DNA of 64,000 nt from Deltaproteobacteria bacterium. Its GTDB lineage: Bacteria > Desulfobacterota > Desulfobacteria > Desulfobacterales > Desulfatibacillaceae. Positions 20,223 to 30,614 of the stretch are shown piece by piece. The stretch lies in contig JACRLG010000013.1 of NCBI GenBank assembly GCA_016235345.1, positions 62,001 to 126,000 on the forward strand, written 5' to 3'. Below the pieces are notes generated by a model. It was not told where the DNA came from. It did not search any database and saw only the letters and a program-made list of their open reading frames with translations. The first letter of the stretch is position 1; every line of letters starts with the position of its first letter. The translations under genes were made by a program, and so were the position numbers.

Positions 20223-21164
20223 TTAAACCACGGGGCGCGGATACAACCCCGCGTCTTTTACTATTCCCGGTACAACCGACTCCCACTCGATGGCCATGAT
20301 GTGAAAGCCAGCAAGGCCGGGGACTTCCTTCAGGCGCTGGATGGTCTCCACGCAGATTTTGAGGCCCTCTTCGGCCTGCTTGTCTTTCGGCTGGTCGGCC
20401 ATGCGCTTTACAACGTCGTCCGGGACGTCCATGCCCGGAACCTTGTTTTTCATGTAACGGGCCATGCCGGCGCTCTTCATGGGGGTGATGCCCGCCATGA
20501 TGTAGACCTGTTCGGTCAGTCCCCGGTCGTGGGCCTGTTTCATCCACAGCTCGAACTTCTCGATATTGTAGATGCACTGTGTCTGGATGAACTCGGCTCC
20601 TGCGGCGATTTTTTTCGCAAGGCGCGGAACACGGATTTCGTAGGGGTCGGCGAAGGGGTTTTCGGCGGCTCCCACGAACATCTTGGGCGGACGGTGGATT
20701 TCGGCCCCGCCCAGGAACTTGCCTTCGTCGCGCATGTGCCGCACGGTCTGGAGAAGCTGCATGGAATCGAGATCGTAAACGTTCTGGCCGCGGGGGTTGT
20801 CACCGAAAACCTGGTGGTCGCCCGAGAGGCACAGCATGTTGTTGATGTCGAAACTGGCTGCACCCAGGATGTCGCTCTGCATGGCTATGCGGTTGCGGTC
20901 GCGGGTGACCATCTGAAGCACCGGCTCCAAGCCTATGAGCTTTAAGCGGATGCAGGCGGCCAGCGAGCACATGCGGGTCATGGCGGTCTGGTTGTCGGTG
21001 ACGTTTATGGCGTCAACGTAGCCGCGAAGAAGCTCGCCTTTGTGGATGACCTCTTCGGGGTCCGAGCCGCGCGGGGGGCCGCACTCGGAGGTCAGACCGA
21101 AGTGTCCGGCTGCCATGATCTTTTCCAGTGTGCTTTCGGTCTTTACGGGTCTTGGGGCTCTCAT
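20223..21164 (-). CDS. metF: Methylenetetrahydrofolate reductase, catalytic subunit MetF
   Basis: 313 residues of the MTHFR TIM barrel. HFGLTSECGPPRGSDPEEV carries the conserved catalytic Glu; NVTDNQ and the FAD-binding GDHQ match MetF (ISSLCLSGDHQ); FIQTQCIYNIEKFELWM and IYIMAGITPMKS fit the folate/FAD pocket. In the Wood-Ljungdahl pathway it interconverts methylene- and methyl-THF. The C-terminal zinc or regulatory part of larger enzymes is absent; that role belongs to MetV next door. The ATG overlaps the metV stop by 4 bp. Its stop codon is directly followed by TIR element D. Confidence 0.9.
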   Translation of the reverse strand: MRAPRPVKTESTLEKIMAAGHFGLTSECGPPRGSDPEEVIHKGELLRGYVDAINVTDNQTAMTRMCSLAACIRLKLIGLEPVLQMVTRDRNRIAMQSDILGAASFDINNMLCLSGDHQVFGDNPRGQNVYDLDSMQLLQTVRHMRDEGKFLGGAEIHRPPKMFVGAAENPFADPYEIRVPRLAKKIAAGAEFIQTQCIYNIEKFELWMKQAHDRGLTEQVYIMAGITPMKSAGMARYMKNKVPGMDVPDDVVKRMADQPKDKQAEEGLKICVETIQRLKEVPGLAGFHIMAIEWESVVPGIVKDAGLYPRPVV

Positions 21165-21829
21165 TGGCGCACCTCCTCCTTGACCACTTTGCGTGGACCG
21201 CCGGCCCGGTCTGTAGACCAGTCCTTCATGGGGGTGAGTTTTTCGTAGTCGTCCATTTTGCCGAGTGCTTTCAAACGATCGACTATGAGCTGCCAGGCGC
21301 AGTCAACTTCCTTGTTGATTTCGCAGCTTCCCTTGCTTGATCCACCGCAGGGGCCGTTCATCAGGCGCTTGGCGCAGCGGGAGACCGGGCAGATTCCTCC
21401 GGTCATGGCCAACATGCATTTGCCGCAGGCCTGGCAGCGCTCGGTCCAGACTCCGCGCTCCTCGGTGGCGCCCAGAAAGCAGGTGTCGACGCCGGGCATG
21501 ACGGGCTTGTCGTGGTATTTTTCCGCCATGAACTGGACGCCCACTCCGCAGGCAAGGGAAAGGATGCCGTTGTACTTGTCCTGGATGCTTCTGATCTCCT
21601 CCAGGTATTCGTGGTCGCACTGGCGCTCCAGGGTCACTTCGTCAATGGAAATGTCCAGCCCCTCTTTGGCGAAAAACATGCGAAGGGCACTGGCCAGAAT
21701 TCCCACTTCCTTTTTGCCGCCCGCCTCGCAGACGGTGACACACTCGTTACAGCCCACTATGAGAAGGTTCTTGAAACCCTTTACGGTTTCAATGACTTCC
21801 TCTATGGGCTTGGGTTTTGCGACGATCAT
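21161..21829 (-). CDS. metV: MTHFR small subunit MetV (zinc/Fe-S binding)
   Basis: 222 residues of the MTHFR C-terminal-like family found next to MetF in acetogens and sulfate reducers. GCNECVTVCEAGGKKEVG (about 25-43) and CQACGKCMLAMTGGICPVSRCAKRLMNGPCGG (about 135-166) hold the clustered cysteines that bind zinc and Fe-S clusters in the Moorella/Sporomusa MetVF complexes. It passes electrons to the flavin of MetF. It starts upstream of metF, overlaps it by 4 bp, and is separated from mvhD by about 180 bp that contain TIR element E. Confidence 0.88.
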   Translation of the reverse strand: MIVAKPKPIEEVIETVKGFKNLLIVGCNECVTVCEAGGKKEVGILASALRMFFAKEGLDISIDEVTLERQCDHEYLEEIRSIQDKYNGILSLACGVGVQFMAEKYHDKPVMPGVDTCFLGATEERGVWTERCQACGKCMLAMTGGICPVSRCAKRLMNGPCGGSSKGSCEINKEVDCAWQLIVDRLKALGKMDDYEKLTPMKDWSTDRAGGPRKVVKEEVRQ

Positions 21830-22011: not shown

Positions 22012-22443
22012 CTAAGCGGCTCGCTTATTTGTCAGCTTGATTGGGTTGGGCCCCAACTCCTTGATTTTTTGTGTCATTTCAATGGCGTACTGTGCGAACA
22101 GGGTTCCCTCTCCCGAGGAGAGGTTGTACATCTGAACCCTTTGCCCGCCCATGCCGATGGAATCGAGAACCTTCTGGGCCTGCACAACGCGTTTTCTGGC
22201 CCGGAAGTTGCCGCCCTTGTAATGGCACTGGCCTTCCATGCAGCCAACCACGTAGGCCCCGTCGGCTCCCTTTTCGATGGCCCTCAGAAGATGGATCACG
22301 TCCACCTTTCCGGTGCAGGGAACGCGGACGATCTTGATATTGGCCGGGTATTCCAGTCTCATCGAACCTGCCAGGTCCGCAGCGGAGTACCCTCAGTAGT
22401 TGCAGCAAAAAGCCACGATGACCGGCTCGAAATCCGCGCTCAT
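22012..22443 (-). CDS. mvhD: MvhD-family electron-transfer subunit, selenocysteine form
   Basis: 143 residues when the in-frame UGA at 22393-22395 is read as selenocysteine (residue 17). Without it the protein would start at an internal ATG at 22362 and lose the first Fe-S ligands. The N-terminus [16 protein letters not shown]-Sec-GYSAADLAG matches 'FCCNWC.YAGADLAG' of MvhD, with Sec where Cys usually stands. Further conserved parts are RVPCTGKVD and GCMEGQCHYKGGN. MvhD carries [2Fe-2S] and links HdrA to its electron partner. The ATG overlaps the hdrA stop by 4 bp. A hairpin GGACCU/AGGUUC begins about 14 nt after the UGA in the mRNA. Confidence 0.9.
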
Positions 22444-25400
22444 AGCACTCCCTCCAATAAAGCTGTTACCTTGCTTTCAAGCTGGATGTCCTCGTACCAG
22501 GAAAGCGTAATTGCCTTGGCCGGGCATTCGGATGCGCACACTCCGCAGCCGTGGCAAAGGGCCTCGTCGATTTCGGACACACCGTCCGCGTTGATGCGGG
22601 GCACCGAGAAGGGGCAGGAGCGCACGCACACCAGGCAGGACGCGCACCTTTCCTGGTCCACCCTGGCCGTGACCGCCGAAAGGGTGAGAAAGGGCTGGGC
22701 AAGGAAGGTGGTGGCCCTGCCCGCAGCGGCCAGAGCCTGGGAAACGGTCTCGGTTACGAGCTTGGGGCCGTGGGCCGTGCCGCACAAAAACACGCCTTCG
22801 GTGGGCATGTCAACGGGCCTAAGCTTCACGTGGGCCTCGATGAAATAGCCCTCCGGGTTCCGGCCCAGCTTCATTATGTTAGAAAGTTCCGCCGTGTCCT
22901 CTGCCCTCATGCCGGCTGAAAGCACCAGCCGGTCGGCTGAAATCTGGAGCATGCGGCCAAGAACGTGATCCCTGAAAGTGACCAGAACGCCGTCGTCGGA
23001 GGATTCGGCGACAGGCGGATTTTCGGGATCGAAGCGGGAGAAGATGACGCCCAGCTTTCTGGCCTGGGTGTAATATTCCTCCATGAGGCCGTCGGTGCGG
23101 ATGTCCCGGTAAAGGACGAACACGTTGGCCTCAGGGTTCATTTTTTTGACGTGAATGGCGTTTTTCACCGCAGCCTGGCAGCAGATGCGGGAGCAGTTGG
23201 GGTTTTCATCGTTTCTGGAGCCCACGCACTGGATCATGACAACGCTGTCCAGGGCGCCGGGGTTCTTTTCCTCCAAAAGTTTCGAGAACTCCACCTGGGT
23301 AATGACCCGGTCGTCTTTACCATACAAATACTCGGTGGGCCGGTACTCCACCGCGCCGGTGGCCACTATGAGGGAGCCGTGGGCGATCTTTTTCTGGTGC
23401 ATGGCCGGACCAACGAGGATTTCGGTCTCGAAGTTCCCCTTGAACCCGGAAAAGCCCACCACCAGCGCCTCGCGGTAAACCTTGATTTTGGGATGGGAAA
23501 GCGTCTTTTGGGCAAGGTCTTCCACGAGCTTTCTGACATCAGCCCCCTCGATGGTGGCGACGAGGTTCCGGCTCATGCCGCCAAGCTCCTTTTCCTTTTC
23601 CACCAGGGCGGTTTCAAAACCCTGGTCGGCAAGGGCCAGGGCCGCTGTCATGCCAGCCACGCCGCCGCCGATCACCAGGGCCTCACGGATAACGGGAATA
23701 ACCGTTTCGTGAAGCGGCCCAAGCGTCGCGGCCCGCGCCACGGCCATTTTCACCAGTTCCTTGGCCTTTTTGGTGGCGGCGTCCGGCTCGCTGGAATGGA
23801 CCCAGGAGTTCTGGTTTCTAATGTTGGCCATCTCGAAAAGGTACTTGTTGAGGCCCACCGAGACCATGGTGTCCTGGAAAATGCCCTCGTGGGTCTTGGG
23901 CGAGCAGGAAGCCACCACCACGCGGTTGATCCCGTGCTCCTTGAAAACCTCCTTCATCGCATCCTGTGAATCCTGGCTGCAGGTGAAGAGGTTGGTGCCG
24001 GAAAAGACCACGTTGGGAAGAGAAGCCGCGTACTCCTGCACTGCGGGCACGTCAACCACGCCCGCGATGTTGATGCCGCACTTGCACACGAAAACGCCGA
24101 TGCGGGGCGCATCGGCCGATACATCCTGTTCCTCCGGCACCACCACCTTCTTGGCCAGGGTTCCGCGCGCTTCGGAGAGGGTGACTCCTGCGGCGCAGGC
24201 TGCTGCCGAGGCCTGGGTGACGGAGGTGGGGATGTCCTTCGGCCCCTGGAAAACGCCGCAGGCGTAAACGCCGGGGCGGCTGGTGGCCACGGGCGCGAAG
24301 GGCTCGGTCTCGGCGAAGCGGTACTTGTCCACTTTGACGCCCAGCCGCTCGGCCAGGGCCCCCACCTGGGCCGGGACCTCCAGGCCCACCGAGAGCACCA
24401 CCATGTCGAAGATTTCCTTCTGGACCACCCCGTCGTCGTCCGCGTAGCGGATTTCGAGGTCGCGTGTTTCTGGGATGTCTTCAATGGTGTGGATGCGGGC
24501 CTTGACGAAGCGCACCCCTTCCTTGTCCTTGGCGCGGTTGTAGTATTTCTCGTAGTCCTTGCCGAAGGTGCGGATGTCCATGTTGAAAATGGTGGCATCA
24601 AGCGCGCCCTTCTGGTGCTCCATGGCTATCATGGCGTCTTTTATGGCGTACATGCAGCAGACCGAGGAGCAGTAGCCGTTTCCGCACTTGTTGTCGTCCC
24701 TTGAGCCAACGCACTGGAGCCAGGCCACCTTTGTGGGCTCCTTGTGGTCGGAGGGGCGCACGAGATGTCCCATTGTGGGGCCCGAAGCCGAGAGAATGCG
24801 CTCGAACTCCAGGGAGGTCACCACGTTGGGGCTGGTCTTATAATGGTAGAACTGGTCCAGGGCCGCAGGATCGTATGGCTCGGAGCCCGGGGCGAGAACC
24901 ACGCTTCCCACGTCCAGCACAAGCTCGCGGCCCGTCTGAGAGTGGTCCACGGCCTTTGCAAGGCAGGCTTCCACGCACTGGTAGCACTCGGAGCAGATGC
25001 CGCACTTAAGGCACCTGTCGGCCTCGGCCTTGGTTTCCGCCTCGTTGTAGCCAAAGGAGACCTCGTTGAAATTGCCCTCGCGCTCGGAAGGATCGTTCTT
25101 CCGCACCGGAATTCTGGCCCGGAGTTTTTCCCCGGCGATTTCGGGCTTTACGAACTCCCACTCCCTGACGCGCCCTTCGGCGATGTCGAGGCCGTTGATA
25201 AAGCGGTGGATGCTCTCCGCCGCCTCTTTTCCCTGGGCCACCGCGTCCACCACGCTCTTTGGGCCGGTCACGGCGTCGCCGCCCGCAAAGACCCAGGAGA
25301 CCGGCGTCTGAAGGGTGACCGGGTCGGCGAGAAGACCGCCGCGCTGGGTGACTTCGACGCCCTGGTCCTTGGCCGAGGGGAAATCCATGCTCTGGCCTAT

Positions 25401-26882
25401 GGCCACGATAACGGTGTCGGTGTCCATGAACCGGCACTCGGTTTCGTTGTACTGCGGATTGAAGCGCCTGCTCTCGTCGAAAACCGCCGTACATTCCTTA
25501 AACGTTAGGCCCGTGACCGCGCCGCCCGCCGAAACGGTGAACTCCTTGGGGCCGAAGCCGTTCACGATCTCGATTCCGCTTTCAAGGGCTTCCTCGATCT
25601 CGTGCTCCCAGGCCGGCATTTCGTGGCGGCCTTCCAGGCACACCATGCTGACCTTTTTGGCTCCAAGGCGCTTGGCGGTGAGGGCCACGTCAACGGCAAC
25701 GTTTCCGCCGCCGACAACCACCACGGTCTCACCCGTGGCGGGCTTCTGGCCCAAGGCCGCCTCGCGCAGGAAATCCACGCCTTGAAGCACGCCTTTGGCG
25801 TCCTCGCCGGGGACGTTCATTTTCCGCCCGCCGTGAAGGCCCACAGCCAGGAAAACCGCCGAGAAGCCGTCCTTCTTGAGGCTTTCCAGCGTTATGTCGG
25901 TTCCAAAGGATACGCCGGTTTTTATCTCAACGCCCATGTTCTCCACGAGGGCTATTTCGGCGTTTAAGGTGTCCTTGGGGAGCCGGTAGGCGGGGATGCC
26001 CACCGCCATCATGCCGCCCTTTACGGGCAGCTTCTCGAAGACCGTGACCCCGTAACCCTGGCGCGCAAGAAAATAGGCTGCGGAAAGCCCGGCAGGGCCG
26101 GAGCCCACGATGGCGACCTTTTCGGGCCGGGCCTCGCCCTTCTCGTGAACCGAGGGAGCGTCCTGGGCCATGTCCCAGTCGTAAAGAAAACGGTGGATGT
26201 CCCGGATGGCCAGGGGCTTGTCCACGTCGTTTCGTGTGCAGGCATTTTCGCACGGATGATGGCAGACCCTGCCGCAGGCTCCGGGGAAGGGGTGCGAGTC
26301 CCGGAAGAGCTTAACCGCCTCCTTGTAGCGCCCGTCGTTCACCAGGGCTATGTAGCCCTGAATGGAGACATGGGCCGGGCAGGTGGCCTTGCAGGGTGCC
26401 GTGCCGCGCTTTTCTATGCCGAAAGCGCCCGGTATGGCCTGGGCGTACTGCTTGAAGGCGGCCTTACGGGTGTTCAGGCTCTCGTTGTAAGCGTCGGGAA
26501 CGACTATGGGGCAGACCTTGGCGCACTCGCCGCAGCTGGTGCATTTCTTGATGTCAACGTACCGGGGGGCCTGGCGCACCCTGGCGGAAAAGTTACCGTT
26601 ATCGCCTTTAAGTTCCACTATCTCGGCGTTGGTGAGAAGCTCGATGTTCAGATGCCGGCCGACCTCGACCAGTTTTGGTGAGATCACTCACATGGCGCAG
26701 TCGTTTGTGGGAAAGGTCTTGTCCAGGCGGCTCATGAGCCCGCCTATGGCTGAGGTTTTTTCCACAAGATAGACGTAATAGCCCGAATTTGCGAGGTCTA
26801 GCGCGGACTGCATCCCCGCGATGCCGCCTCCCACAACCATCACCGAGCCCACGGGGCCCGGCGTTTTCTGCTGGTCTTCCAT
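22440..26882 (-). CDS. hdrA: Giant HdrA-GltD-HdrA fusion, selenoprotein
   Basis: 1480 residues when the in-frame UGA at 26688-26690 is read as Sec65. The context NDCAM[15 protein letters not shown] equals HdrA 'PTNDCSMC..aPK', where Sec replaces an active Cys that ligates the [4Fe-4S] cluster near FAD. Order: HdrA N-terminal FAD motif [16 protein letters not shown] (about 16-31); [4Fe-4S] [12 protein letters not shown] (114-125); a complete GltD-like NAD(P)H:FAD module ([18 protein letters not shown], then [18 protein letters not shown], then [18 protein letters not shown]); second HdrA part ([28 protein letters not shown]); third HdrA module ([30 protein letters not shown]); two C-terminal 4Fe-4S ([24 protein letters not shown]). 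It should oxidise NAD(P)H and split or merge electrons between ferredoxin and MvhD/MetVF. GAGGTGG precedes the ATG. Confidence 0.92.
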
Positions 26883-27364
26883 CAGCCACCTCTTGTTCTT
26901 TTGAGTGATCCGGCGCGCATCCGGCCCGCCGGCCCTGCATTTTGGGCGCCATGCTCCGGAGGACCGAACCAGGCCCTGCCGGATGAACCCGACTCACACC
27001 TTTTGCTTTTCACTTTCACGGCAGGCCGGGGCGCGCCGCATAATTGCACCGGACTCTTTCCGAAAGCCGCTCTTAAGCGCCGTGGGCGCTCGAGTCTTTT
27101 CCGACTAAAACAGTCAGCATGGTGTCTTACACCTAAGCGTCGGCACCGTCAACAGGACGATGAGAAGAATCGGGAAAAAAATCGAGGGATACAGGAAGCC
27201 GGAAAAGGAATCCGAACGGCCCCGAGGGGGCGCGTTTTTTTGCCGGTTTCCCGGCCCTGTTGATTGTTATGGAAATTAATCCTCAATATCATTATAATAT
27301 TTGATTGAAGCGAAAGCCGCCCGGGGTCCCCGGCGGCCGGAAATTTTCAACCGGAACCCGAGCC
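26883..27364. other. Divergent intergenic region with terminator-like hairpin
   Basis: About 480 bp between hdrA and a PAS-LuxR regulator. GCCCC-GA-GGGGGC (27219-27231) followed by GCG and seven T's (27235-27241) looks like a plus-strand terminator, although no plus-strand gene precedes it. CATAAT at 27039-27044 could be a -10 box about 180 bp upstream. A short leader or small RNA is possible. Nothing else stands out. Confidence 0.4.
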
Positions 27365-29053
27365 ATGGAAAACGCCTCCCAAAATACGGAAACCGGGATG
27401 CAAGGCGGGCAGGACGCGGGCGAACCCGCACCGGGCGAAGTCGAAGGCCTTTACAGCCGCCTGGCCGACCTTGAAATGGATCGGGAAAAGTATCGGACCC
27501 TTTTTTCCCAGGCCAATGAAGCGGTCTTTCTGGCGGAGCTTGACGACGACGGCAAGGGGCGCGCCAGGAAATTCGTAGAGGTGAACGACACGGCGTGCGC
27601 CTGGCTGGGATACGCCCCCGATGAGTTTTACGGCATGGTCCCCCAGGATTTGATAGCCCCTGACGACCGCCCCCTCCTGGCCGCCTACAGGAAGACCCTG
27701 GCCGACGAACAGTGGATCACCGCCGAGGTGGGGCTTCTTTCCAGGTCGGGCCGGGTGGTGCCCGTGGAGATGAGCGCAAGGGCCTTCCTTATGGGCGGAA
27801 AGCTCATGGGCCTTTTCATCGCGCGCGACTTGAGCCGGGCCACGGCCTTTCGGAGCGCGCTCGCCGAGGCGGTGGAAAGATGGCGCTCCATGACCGACAA
27901 CTGCCCGGACCACATACTCATCGTGGGGGAAGACGGGGTGATAGAGTTCTGCAACCGGGGCGTTCTGGGCTTGAGCCGTGAAAACCTGGTGGGAATGCGC
28001 TTTTTCGACCATGTCCCGGTCTCTTACAGGGCCTTTGCGGAAGACAGCGTGAAAAAGCTCTTCCAGGACGGAAAAAACCAGTTTCACGAAATCGAGTTCG
28101 TTCAATCCCCCGAAAGGAGCTTCATATTTCTTGCCCACCTAAGCCCGGTAACCGTGGGGGGCAGGGTTAAAAGCGCGGCCATCCGCCTCGTCGACGTGTC
28201 CGAACGAAAGGCCATGGAACGCTCCCTCATGGAAAACGAGGCCCGTTACAGGAATTTCGTGGAAAGCTTCATCGGAATAGCTTATGAATTCGACCCGGCC
28301 CTTGACCGGCCATCGTTTTTTCGGGGAGCCGTGGAGGCCGTGACGGGCTATACGGAAGACGACTTCCTTTCCGGCAGAATACGGTGGGCGGACCTTGTTC
28401 ACCCCCTGGACCGCCCGAAGCGGGGCGAAATCGAACCGGGCAAGCTCCTGAGGGAGACGGAATACCGCATCATCAGCAGGGCCGGGAAAACGGTTCACGT
28501 GACCGAGTCGGCCAGAAGGATGCCGGGGATACCAGGGGGCTTAAACTATGGCGTGATATACGACATAACGGGACGAAAGCAGAAAGAGGATCTGATCGAA
28601 CGCCGGGAGAGGGAGCTTTCCGAATCCAACGCAAGCCTCACGGAAATGAACACCACCCTGGGCATACTGCTCAAGAGGCGTGAAACGGACCGGGCGGATA
28701 TGGAGCGGAACGTATCCGAAAACCTTGGCAGGGTGGTGATGCCCCTTCTGGCCAAGCTGAAGACGAGCGGGCTTTCCACCGTCCAGCTGAACTACCTGGA
28801 CGCCATGGAAAAGGGGATCGACCAGGTGGTGTCGGGTTTCGGGCGCACGCTTTCCTCCCACAAGTTCCGCCTGACACCCACCGAGGTCCAGGTGGCGGCA
28901 CTTGTCAAGGAGGGCCATACCACCAAGGACATCGCCCAAATGCTCAACATGAGCCGAAGCACGGTGGATACGCACAGGAACAACATCCGGAACAAGCTGG
29001 AAATAAAAAAACAGGGGGTCAACCTGAGAGCCTATCTCACCTCCCTTGAATGA
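27365..29053 (+). CDS. PAS-domain LuxR-type transcriptional regulator
   Basis: 562 residues from the ATG at 27365; the frame can be opened from a TTG at 27305, but neither start has a good ribosome site. Three PAS-like domains can be seen: YRTLFSQANEAVFLAELD.., RWRSMTDNCPDHILIVGEDGVIEFCN.. and YRNFVESFIGIAYEFDPALDRPSFF... A coiled linker (SNASLTEMNTTLGILLKRRETDRADME) precedes a LuxR HTH (LTPTEVQVAALVKEGHTTKDIAQMLNMSRSTVDTHRNNIRNKLEI). No receiver domain, so it is a one-component sensor or is fed by an unseen partner. It is divergent from hdrA and may regulate it; that is an inference from position. Confidence 0.82.
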   Translation: MENASQNTETGMQGGQDAGEPAPGEVEGLYSRLADLEMDREKYRTLFSQANEAVFLAELDDDGKGRARKFVEVNDTACAWLGYAPDEFYGMVPQDLIAPDDRPLLAAYRKTLADEQWITAEVGLLSRSGRVVPVEMSARAFLMGGKLMGLFIARDLSRATAFRSALAEAVERWRSMTDNCPDHILIVGEDGVIEFCNRGVLGLSRENLVGMRFFDHVPVSYRAFAEDSVKKLFQDGKNQFHEIEFVQSPERSFIFLAHLSPVTVGGRVKSAAIRLVDVSERKAMERSLMENEARYRNFVESFIGIAYEFDPALDRPSFFRGAVEAVTGYTEDDFLSGRIRWADLVHPLDRPKRGEIEPGKLLRETEYRIISRAGKTVHVTESARRMPGIPGGLNYGVIYDITGRKQKEDLIERRERELSESNASLTEMNTTLGILLKRRETDRADMERNVSENLGRVVMPLLAKLKTSGLSTVQLNYLDAMEKGIDQVVSGFGRTLSSHKFRLTPTEVQVAALVKEGHTTKDIAQMLNMSRSTVDTHRNNIRNKLEIKKQGVNLRAYLTSLE

Positions 29054-29237: not shown

Positions 29238-30614
29238 GTGAAAATAAAACCCGAAAAAAATTCCGCCCTTCCCAAGGCAAAACCGGCTTCCCGCGAAGCC
29301 ATGCGCCCCTTCACCCTGGTCAAGAATTTCACCTTCGTAAGCCTTATGGTGATCTTCGCCGGAACGGTATTCCTGTCGGTGGTGATAACCCACCGGGCCA
29401 AGACCATGCTTCTGCAGAAGAGCGAGGCATACGCGCTTTTATTGGCCAACAACCTGAACCACCAGATTTTTCTTCAATTTCTGATTCCGGCGGCCATCCG
29501 CTACGGAAAGATTCAGCTTCGGGACCCGATCCAGGCCGAGCTGATGGACAAGGTGGTTAGGGGCACCATTCACGGTTTCAACGTGGACAACGTCACCGTT
29601 TATGGCACCGACAACATAATTTCCTACAGCTTTGACAAAAAACTCGTGGGCAACGCCGTTCCGCCCGGCATAGAGTACCGGCTGGCCCTTACGGGAAATT
29701 CATCGTCAAAATTGGTTCAGCGGGGGCCCTTCTGGGCCATTTTGCTGGGAGTGCCCGAAGAGAGCAAGTTGAAGACCTTCGCGCCGCTCTTCGCGGAGGA
29801 GCCAATGGCCACCGTGACCCGGAGGGTTCTTGGGGTTTTCGAGATAGTGCAGGACCTTTCGGCGGACATCCGCACCATATTCCGCTTCCAGCTTCTCATC
29901 ATCGCAGCCTCCACAGGGGTCATGCTCGGCCTCTTCCTTATACTCCGAATGTACGTCAAGCGCGGGGAGCAGATACTGTGGAGAAGGGCGGAAGAGCGCC
30001 TGAAGCTGGAAGACGAGCTGGCGGCGGCGGAACGAATGGCGGCCCTGGGGCAGATGGCCGCCTCGGTTTCCCACGAAATAAGGAACCCCCTGGGAATTAT
30101 CAGGAGTTCGGCCCAGCTCCTTAAAAAAAGGATGCCCGAAGGAAACCAGGGGGCGAGATTCGCGGATGTCATAGTGGAGGAATCGAGCCGCTTAAACGAC
30201 ATCATAACGGATTTTCTGAACTTCGCCCGGCCCATAGAACCCAGGCTTTCGCCCTGCCGGGTGGACGAGGTGCTGGAAAAGAACATCGCCTTCCTGTCCG
30301 CCCGCATGGACGAGGAAAAGGTGAGGGTGATAAGGAACTACTCGCCCAACCTGCCCCATGTCATGGCGGACGCCAATCTTTTTTACCAGGCCTTTCTGAA
30401 CATCCTCATGAACGCCATGCAGGCCATGCCCGAAGGCGGCTCCATAACCGTTGAGATAATGGCGGATTCCGAAAACCTCACCCTGTCCTTCACCGACGAG
30501 GGAACGGGCATCGATGACGCCGCCATCAAGCGCATATGGAACCCCTTTTTCACCACCAAGGAGAGGGGCAACCACCAAGGAGAGGGGCACCGGCCTTGGG
30601 CTTTCGGTGGTTAA
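29238..30614 (+). CDS. Sensor histidine kinase, frameshifted in the ATP-binding domain
   Basis: 458 residues as read. One span near 34-54, a periplasmic sensor of about 160 residues, a second span near 214-235, then HisKA with SVSHEIRNPLGIIRSSAQLL (phospho-His) and HATPase: N box NAMQAMPEGG, G1 DEGTGIDD, F box WNPFFTTKERG. There a perfect 19-bp tandem duplication (30552-30589) shifts the frame, and the last 12 residues are foreign. With one unit removed the frame reads FFTTKERGTGLGLSVVKNIVEAHRG (G2 box) and ends at 30732, overlapping the response regulator by 23 bp. So the gene was recently intact; the duplication is either real or an assembly error. It pairs with the NtrC-type regulator that follows. 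Confidence 0.88.
   Translation: MKIKPEKNSALPKAKPASREAMRPFTLVKNFTFVSLMVIFAGTVFLSVVITHRAKTMLLQKSEAYALLLANNLNHQIFLQFLIPAAIRYGKIQLRDPIQAELMDKVVRGTIHGFNVDNVTVYGTDNIISYSFDKKLVGNAVPPGIEYRLALTGNSSSKLVQRGPFWAILLGVPEESKLKTFAPLFAEEPMATVTRRVLGVFEIVQDLSADIRTIFRFQLLIIAASTGVMLGLFLILRMYVKRGEQILWRRAEERLKLEDELAAAERMAALGQMAASVSHEIRNPLGIIRSSAQLLKKRMPEGNQGARFADVIVEESSRLNDIITDFLNFARPIEPRLSPCRVDEVLEKNIAFLSARMDEEKVRVIRNYSPNLPHVMADANLFYQAFLNILMNAMQAMPEGGSITVEIMADSENLTLSFTDEGTGIDDAAIKRIWNPFFTTKERGNHQGEGHRPWAFGG
30552..30589. repeat. Perfect 19-bp tandem duplication in kinase gene
   Basis: The unit ACCACCAAGGAGAGGGGCA occurs twice without a gap (30552-30570, 30571-30589). Because 19 is not a multiple of three, it moves the G2 box of the kinase out of frame. 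Confidence 0.95.

Follow-up and report, generated by a model that had tools for sequence, protein, structure and literature searches.

We analysed a 64,000-nucleotide stretch of DNA (hereafter the window) from a Deltaproteobacteria bacterium of the family Desulfatibacillaceae (assembly GCA_016235345.1, contig JACRLG010000013.1, positions 62,001 to 126,000). Our subject is hdrL, a minus-strand gene in which two HdrA parts are fused to a GltD-type module and which is followed on the same strand by mvhD, metV and metF. An in-frame UGA at codon 65 of hdrL is best explained as selenocysteine (Sec). We consider it probable that the product is an HdrL-type selenoprotein working within an HdrL-MvhD-MetVF methyl-/methylene-tetrahydrofolate (THF) oxidoreductase that would be NADH-linked and possibly confurcating. 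The features of the locus are collected in Table 1.

The hdrL frame begins at the ATG at 26882, immediately preceded by AAGAGGTGG, and its sole internal stop is the TGA at 26690-26688, residue 65. An initial annotation of this DNA, made from the letters alone, had placed an HdrA-GltD-HdrA fusion at 22440-26882 without naming the strand, and had taken the frames on either side of the UGA to be contiguous. Both claims held: Pfam and NCBIfam scans place HdrA parts on either side of a GltD-type module, and a single frame, interrupted only by this TGA, runs through to the stop at 22442-22440. With two HdrA parts, a GltD domain and an adjoining mvhD, the gene is of the HdrL type. Under translation table 11 the open reading frame is called as 26687-22440, starting with the GTG at 26687 directly after the TGA. 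Since this call truncates the gene at the UGA and omits the beginning of the flavin adenine dinucleotide (FAD) fold, hdrL is easily misannotated.

Alignment with the solved HdrA 5odc matched residues 15-158 of the product to chain residues 147-290 without a gap. Further matches paired residues 630-837 with 293-497, 924-1096 with 2-174, and 1300-1474 with 470-648. Based on this alignment, module A is an HdrA minus its N-terminal domain, with GltD inserted in its ferredoxin domain. The GltD module (residues 161-563) splits that inserted ferredoxin domain, leaving cysteine motifs at 114-124 and 624-640 on either side. The FAD domain of module B is without a CxxU/CxxC site, and no inserted-ferredoxin cysteine motif was found in module B between residues 993 and 1219.

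Table 1. Features of the hdrL-mvhD-metVF locus in window coordinates (SECIS, selenocysteine insertion sequence)
Feature	Position	Strand	Details
hdrL, HdrA-GltD-HdrA fusion	22440..26882	minus	1,480 amino acids including predicted Sec65; ATG 26882, stop TGA 22442-22440
In-frame UGA, predicted Sec65	26688..26690	minus	motif C62-A-M-U65; aligns with Cys197 of solved HdrA
Predicted bacterial SECIS hairpin of hdrL	26655..26672	minus	CUGGUCGAGGUCGGCCGG; 16-33 nucleotides past UGA
GltD/NfnL-like module	25194..26402	minus	residues 161-563; Fer4_20 cysteines, FAD and NAD(P)H sites; CLE at 415-417
HdrA module A, second half	24168..25013	minus	residues 624-905; second ferredoxin motif; cysteines 724/738/742/743; E694, K748
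HdrA module B	22443..24113	minus	residues 924-1480; N-terminal cluster domain Cys933/935/968/993; C-terminal ferredoxin about 1405-1460
mvhD (FlpD family)	22012..22443	minus	143 amino acids including predicted Sec17; FlpD 158.7 bits
In-frame UGA, predicted Sec17 of MvhD	22393..22395	minus	motif CCNYU; TGA in 63/78 and Cys in 15/78 MvhD genes
SECIS-like hairpin of mvhD	22363..22379	minus	CGGACCU-GGC-AGGUUCG; 14-30 nucleotides past UGA
metV (DUF5981, iron-sulfur partner of MetF)	21161..21829	minus	profile match
metF (methylenetetrahydrofolate reductase)	20223..21164	minus	ATG overlaps metV stop

The predicted selenocysteine codon of hdrL and its hairpin

Relatives were sampled across the order by searching 146 genomes. 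We took 80 stretches, namely every listed full-length match of at least 57% identity and 11 chosen among the listed lower ones (45-52% in our own alignment), with truncated matches excluded. These stretches carry 82 HdrL genes, or 83 with that of the window. At site 65 the codon is TGA in 68 of the 83 (the Sec genes below), TGC or TGT, that is Cys, in 15, and anything else in none. A scan of genome contigs returned a single locus, and a separate metagenome-assembled genome with an 86% identical locus (L067) has TGA at both the hdrL and the mvhD site. The initial annotation had set the UGA, within the motif NDCAM-U, at a conserved active-site Cys of HdrA. This description can be sharpened: residue 65 aligns gaplessly with Cys197 of 5odc, a residue described as a ligand that one HdrA copy lends to a cluster of its partner (PMC9012536).

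The same annotation had tied its reading to the presence of sel genes, and selA, selB, selC and selD were all found in the window genome (G000, 97% complete). tRNA-Sec scored 74.9 bits (cut-off 47), SelB 360.6 bits, SelA 587.5 bits and SelD 342.8 bits, the SelD gene having one in-frame TGA of its own (G000:C7:113791-114720, L068). Among 60 genomes tested, drawn from the known relatives, SelA was present in 59, and the genome without it is 69% complete. Taken together, the codon pattern and the machinery make it near-certain that UGA 65 is read as selenocysteine. Two more HdrA genes of the window genome also have an in-frame TGA at the equivalent site (L151, G000:C35; L154, G000:C24).

TGA occurs in both hdrL and mvhD in 61 cases, and eight metVF-linked HdrL genes of 58-59% identity have Cys in HdrL and in MvhD. 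The two states are separable: L148 and L149 pair a Cys HdrL with a Sec MvhD, and L143, L144, L147 and L150 a Sec HdrL with a Cys MvhD. The expectation that genomes with Cys in both proteins had lost the Sec machinery was rejected, as SelA is present in all eight genomes that carry the double-Cys metVF-linked cluster.

The UGA is followed by the 18-nucleotide hairpin CUGGUC-GAGGUC-GGCCGG (26672-26655), which had been described as starting about 16 nucleotides after the UGA, in the range of bacterial SECIS elements. Its first base does lie at 16 nucleotides. All 18 bases are unchanged in 68 of the 68 Sec genes and altered in each of the 13 Cys genes compared (13 of the 15; L148 and L149 were left out), in which only two to five of the six pairs are formed. 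In a codon alignment of the 68 Sec genes, with a median protein identity of 63%, the only invariant codons other than those for Met and Trp are the UGA and the hairpin's codons 71-76, and these six form the sole fully invariant six-codon window. For comparison, the commonest codon accounts for 58% on average across the 342 positions whose amino acid is near-invariant and not Met or Trp. This pattern of conservation is far beyond chance. A different pairing, preferred when the 47 nucleotides past the window's UGA were folded, was set aside; it relies on codons that vary in relatives.

Covariation cannot be used within the 68 genes because the hairpin is invariant there, and variation was found only in other Sec-HdrA genes. 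In a phylum-wide protein-similarity search of 247 genomes, 30 loci were read among the matches listed, 21 with TGA and nine with Cys. A further 20 listed TGA matches were picked by eye after the pattern hits described below were known, and these hits include some of them. Of the resulting 41 Sec-HdrA sites, five were already among the 68 and 20 are those picked by eye. Among these listed matches the exact hairpin is present at 37 of 41 sites (20 of 20 in one batch, 17 of 21 in the other), and three of the four exceptions retain all six pairs. L210 has a two-sided change of a C-G pair to U-A with all six pairs kept, L214 and L215 have two one-sided changes with pairing retained, and L216 has lost one pair. 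Of 395 genomes from the phylum, 125 have the exact pattern of TGA, 15 nucleotides of any kind and the hairpin; the reversed control gave 0 throughout. Within the window genome, the hairpin of L151 is identical to that of hdrL; the element is not universal, since the third Sec-HdrA gene, L154, has a different sequence downstream of its TGA.

Neighbouring genes and the dinucleotide site

The mvhD gene was overlooked in the initial annotation and is, judged by its codons, a second selenoprotein gene beside hdrL. Its ATG overlaps the hdrL stop (ATGA), and mvhD adjoins 78 of the 83 HdrL genes. Past its UGA, codons +5 to +7 are identical in all 63 Sec copies and codons +8 and +9 in 61 of the 63; these codons vary in the Cys copies. 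The metV-metF pair downstream of mvhD was likewise absent from that account. Considering HdrL genes of at least 57% identity with at least 2 kb of downstream sequence, window included, metF lies downstream of 54 of the 57 with Sec and all 8 with Cys. Many relatives (L072, for example) have another, distant MetF-like gene some 0.9 kb in front of hdrL, with about 30% identity to the window's MetF; none was found at that place in the window.

The gap between mvhD and metV is 182 nucleotides in the window, leaving no room for an HdrCB-like gene in the cluster. In seven of nine relatives an HdrCB/HdrD-like gene with an in-frame TGA in the motif LNTEUGH was found, six times in the mvhD-metV interval (L081, L085, L087, L095, L133 and L134) and once behind metF (L123). 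A search by motif did not find such a gene at L097 or L098. Based on this motif, the gene is possibly a third selenoprotein of the cluster in relatives.

The GltD module offers a clue to the electron carrier. At residues 415-417 the window HdrL reads CLE, where five solved GltD-type homologues with an alignment shown read YRR. Among the 68 Sec genes the motif is YRR in 39 and CLE in 29, and among all 83 HdrL genes YRR in 46 and CLE in 37. On a quick IQ-TREE phylogeny with Shimodaira-Hasegawa-like approximate likelihood ratio (SH-aLRT) support, CLE falls into one Sec clade of 29 rows (support 100) and one Cys clade of eight rows (support 100). L097 and L098, each with two metVF-linked copies within one 18-kb stretch, have one CLE and one YRR copy each. 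We take CLE to be the NADH type and YRR the NADPH type. The GltD module suggests that HdrL would use NAD(P)H directly, and NADH is likelier than NADPH for the window protein because it has CLE where the five solved homologues have YRR.

The window genome also encodes CdhC (433 bits) and DsrA (615 bits), which makes it probable that the source organism reduces sulfate and has the Wood-Ljungdahl pathway. Divergent from hdrL lies a gene for a PAS-LuxR regulator (27305-29053, plus strand), which possibly regulates the cluster. It is followed by a sensor histidine kinase gene (29238-30614, plus strand) whose ATPase domain is shortened by a frame break near its end. Two frames at the break each encode the peptide TTKERG, and the domain resumes in the second of them.

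Proposed function and alternative explanations

In solved HdrA, the N-terminal cluster of one copy receives Cys197 of the other copy as a ligand, and this cluster lies on the electron path that runs through the inserted ferredoxin domain; fused HdrA proteins, the MetFV-linked one of Moorella included, are described as having lost Cys197 and the N-terminal domain in a complementary manner (PMC9012536). The window HdrL fits this description, as module A is without the N-terminal domain and module B without the CxxU site, and Cys933/935/968/993 of module B are kept in all 68 Sec genes. We therefore predict that Sec65 of module A completes the N-terminal cluster of module B. Residues associated with bifurcating HdrA flavins have also been named (PMC9430772), E356 and K409 in M. 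thermolithotrophicus numbering, and their equivalents are present in both modules. In module A (E694, K748) the pair is found in 68 of 68 Sec genes; in module B, E1198 is found in 63 and K1240 in 64 of the 68.

Based upon these observations, we propose that HdrL, MvhD, MetV and MetF form a single methyl-/methylene-THF oxidoreductase, and we regard such a complex as likely. MetF, with its flavin, would handle the folate, and MetV and MvhD would relay electrons to the C-terminal ferredoxin of HdrL. The two HdrA modules, fused into what would serve as a built-in HdrA dimer, would then split or merge the electrons at their FADs. Sec65, in the place of Cys197, would complete the [4Fe-4S] cluster of the N-terminal domain of module B, on a low-potential route toward the inserted ferredoxin domain, and the inserted GltD module would link this route to NAD(P)H, with NADH the probable carrier in the window protein. 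When NAD+ (-320 mV) is the acceptor, oxidation of methyl-THF (-200 mV) is uphill, and ferredoxin-driven coupling has been proposed for it (PMC6295475). In a probable sulfate reducer methyl-THF would likely be oxidised, with reduced ferredoxin as the driver and NADH as the product (confurcation); the opposite direction would serve CO2 fixation. For confurcation itself we see about even chances. The most detailed version remains tentative, its chances falling a little short of even: here Sec65 would provide a natural selenolate ligand to a [4Fe-4S] cluster and would connect the fused modules on the low-potential branch of a confurcating methyl-THF:NAD(P) oxidoreductase, the MvhD relay would contribute another Sec, and the enzyme would exist in NADH (CLE) and NADPH (YRR) forms, some genomes having both. 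Such an enzyme would let complete-oxidising sulfate reducers overcome the uphill oxidation of methyl-THF.

Several observations weigh against this interpretation or parts of it. Rfam returned no match at E <= 1 for the hairpin. The bSECIS rule was passed by all 68 Sec genes, by 11 of 13 Cys genes and by 1,083 of the 3,350 stretches downstream of Cys codons that served as controls; because it fails to discriminate Sec genes from these, it was not counted as support. Sec is replaceable in the eight genomes with Cys in both HdrL and MvhD, since they keep SelA alongside. No mvhD was found at five of the 83 HdrL genes. Neither hdrB nor hdrC was found between 20223 and 26882, the rest of the genome not having been searched for a partner HdrBC. 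The choice of NADH over NADPH depends on one motif, and the direction of electron flow is a prediction. There is biochemical evidence on this side as well: the Moorella complex showed no NADH-dependent methylene-THF reduction, did not use ferredoxin as acceptor and was not shown to bifurcate (PMC6295475), and the Sporomusa enzyme did not co-reduce either ferredoxin or NAD(P) (PMC9430772).

The failure to demonstrate bifurcating activity in the Moorella and Sporomusa Hdr-type enzymes favors an alternative that is possible although we hold it to be on balance doubtful, namely that HdrL-MvhD-MetVF is a plain, non-bifurcating methylene-THF reductase, NADH-linked or membrane-linked, in which the HdrA flavins merely relay electrons. 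However, the E/K signature is kept throughout module A and in most copies of module B, and methyl-THF oxidation with NAD+ requires a driver at the potentials given above. It is also conceivable, although unlikely, that HdrL is independent of MetVF and the gene order historical, with HdrL-MvhD acting in sulfite reduction or with different partners; such a role has been proposed for HdrL1 of Desulfobacterium autotrophicum, where dsrABC lies behind hdrL1 and mvhD (PMC2702500). Among the nine HdrL genes that are 45-52% identical and have sufficient sequence, metF is downstream of two and missing behind seven, and three of the 57 close Sec homologues (L088, L091 and L121) are without a nearby metF. 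The linkage in the other 54, and in every close Cys homologue, argues for a shared function, as does the interaction of HdrA, MvhD and MetF found by pulldown in Sporomusa (PMC9430772).

The remaining alternatives concern the UGA. That it truly terminates translation, or else reflects a sequencing error or gene decay, with a restart at GTG 26687, agrees with the table 11 frame 26687-22440 being open, but it is very improbable: the UGA is shared by 68 of 83 genes and by a separate metagenome-assembled genome, the 1,480 codons hold no other internal stop, and a restart at 26687 would leave the protein without the conserved CxxU and without the beginning of its FAD fold. General recoding of UGA as another amino acid such as Trp or Gly is less credible still, as hdrL itself terminates in UGA, homologues carry Cys and never Trp or Gly, and the UGA co-occurs with the hairpin in a genome that has the Sec machinery.

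Comparison with known systems

Neither the Sec-HdrL type nor the HdrA-GltD-HdrA layout is new; both are already described, from D. autotrophicum in 2009 and from Moorella. The locus is thus less novel than the initial annotation had assumed, a Sec-HdrL beside a Sec-mvhD having been known since 2009 (PMC2702500). No conserved double-Sec hdrL-mvhD-metVF unit and no HdrL biochemistry were found in the open literature, as far as its available texts go. This unit, its natural Sec and Cys versions and the paralogue pairs with opposite dinucleotide motifs make the function of HdrL, and the electron partner of Hdr-type methylene-THF reductases, approachable by experiment.

In D. autotrophicum HRM2, HdrL1 and HdrL3 contain Sec, an mvhD accompanies each hdrL, and Sec is present in four of the mvhD genes (Strittmatter et al. 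2009, PMC2702500). The likeness to the window is a Sec-HdrL beside a Sec-mvhD. The surroundings differ: in that genome dsrABC follows hdrL1, other loci have fdh genes, and metF is named three times in the available text of the paper, none of these in an hdrL locus (PMC2702500), whereas the window's hdrL is metVF-linked.

The MetVF-HdrBCA-MvhD system of Moorella thermoacetica is similar in layout, with GltD interrupting the N-terminal HdrA part and a second HdrA at amino acids 922-1487; its E696/K750 and E1204/K1246 correspond to E694/K748 and E1198/K1240 of the window, and mvhD and metVF are clustered alongside (PMC9430772). The window shares this arrangement of a GltD-inserted HdrA clustered with mvhD, metV and metF. 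The Moorella HdrA is reported to oxidise NADH. In contrast, the Moorella cluster has hdrBC, and Sec is unmentioned in the available text (PMC9430772); the window cluster is without hdrBC and has predicted Sec in HdrL and MvhD.

Sec-HdrA and Sec-VhuD/MvhD of methanogens and Deltaproteobacteria share with the window the CxxU motif in HdrA and MvhD/VhuD and their joint operons (PMC13188914). The solved methanogen HdrA, unlike the window HdrL, has no GltD insert. Archaeal SECIS elements lie mostly in the 3′ untranslated region (PMC9312934), whereas the window hairpin lies within the coding frame past the UGA. Finally, the fused or tandem HdrA proteins of anaerobic methanotrophic archaea (ANME) show the same complementary loss, of Cys197 in one copy and of the N-terminal cluster domain in the other (PMC9012536). 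Their copies stand in the opposite order to those of the window, and the available text describes neither a GltD insert nor Sec in these HdrA proteins (PMC9012536); the window HdrL combines the complementary loss with a GltD insert and, near-certainly, with Sec at the position of Cys197.

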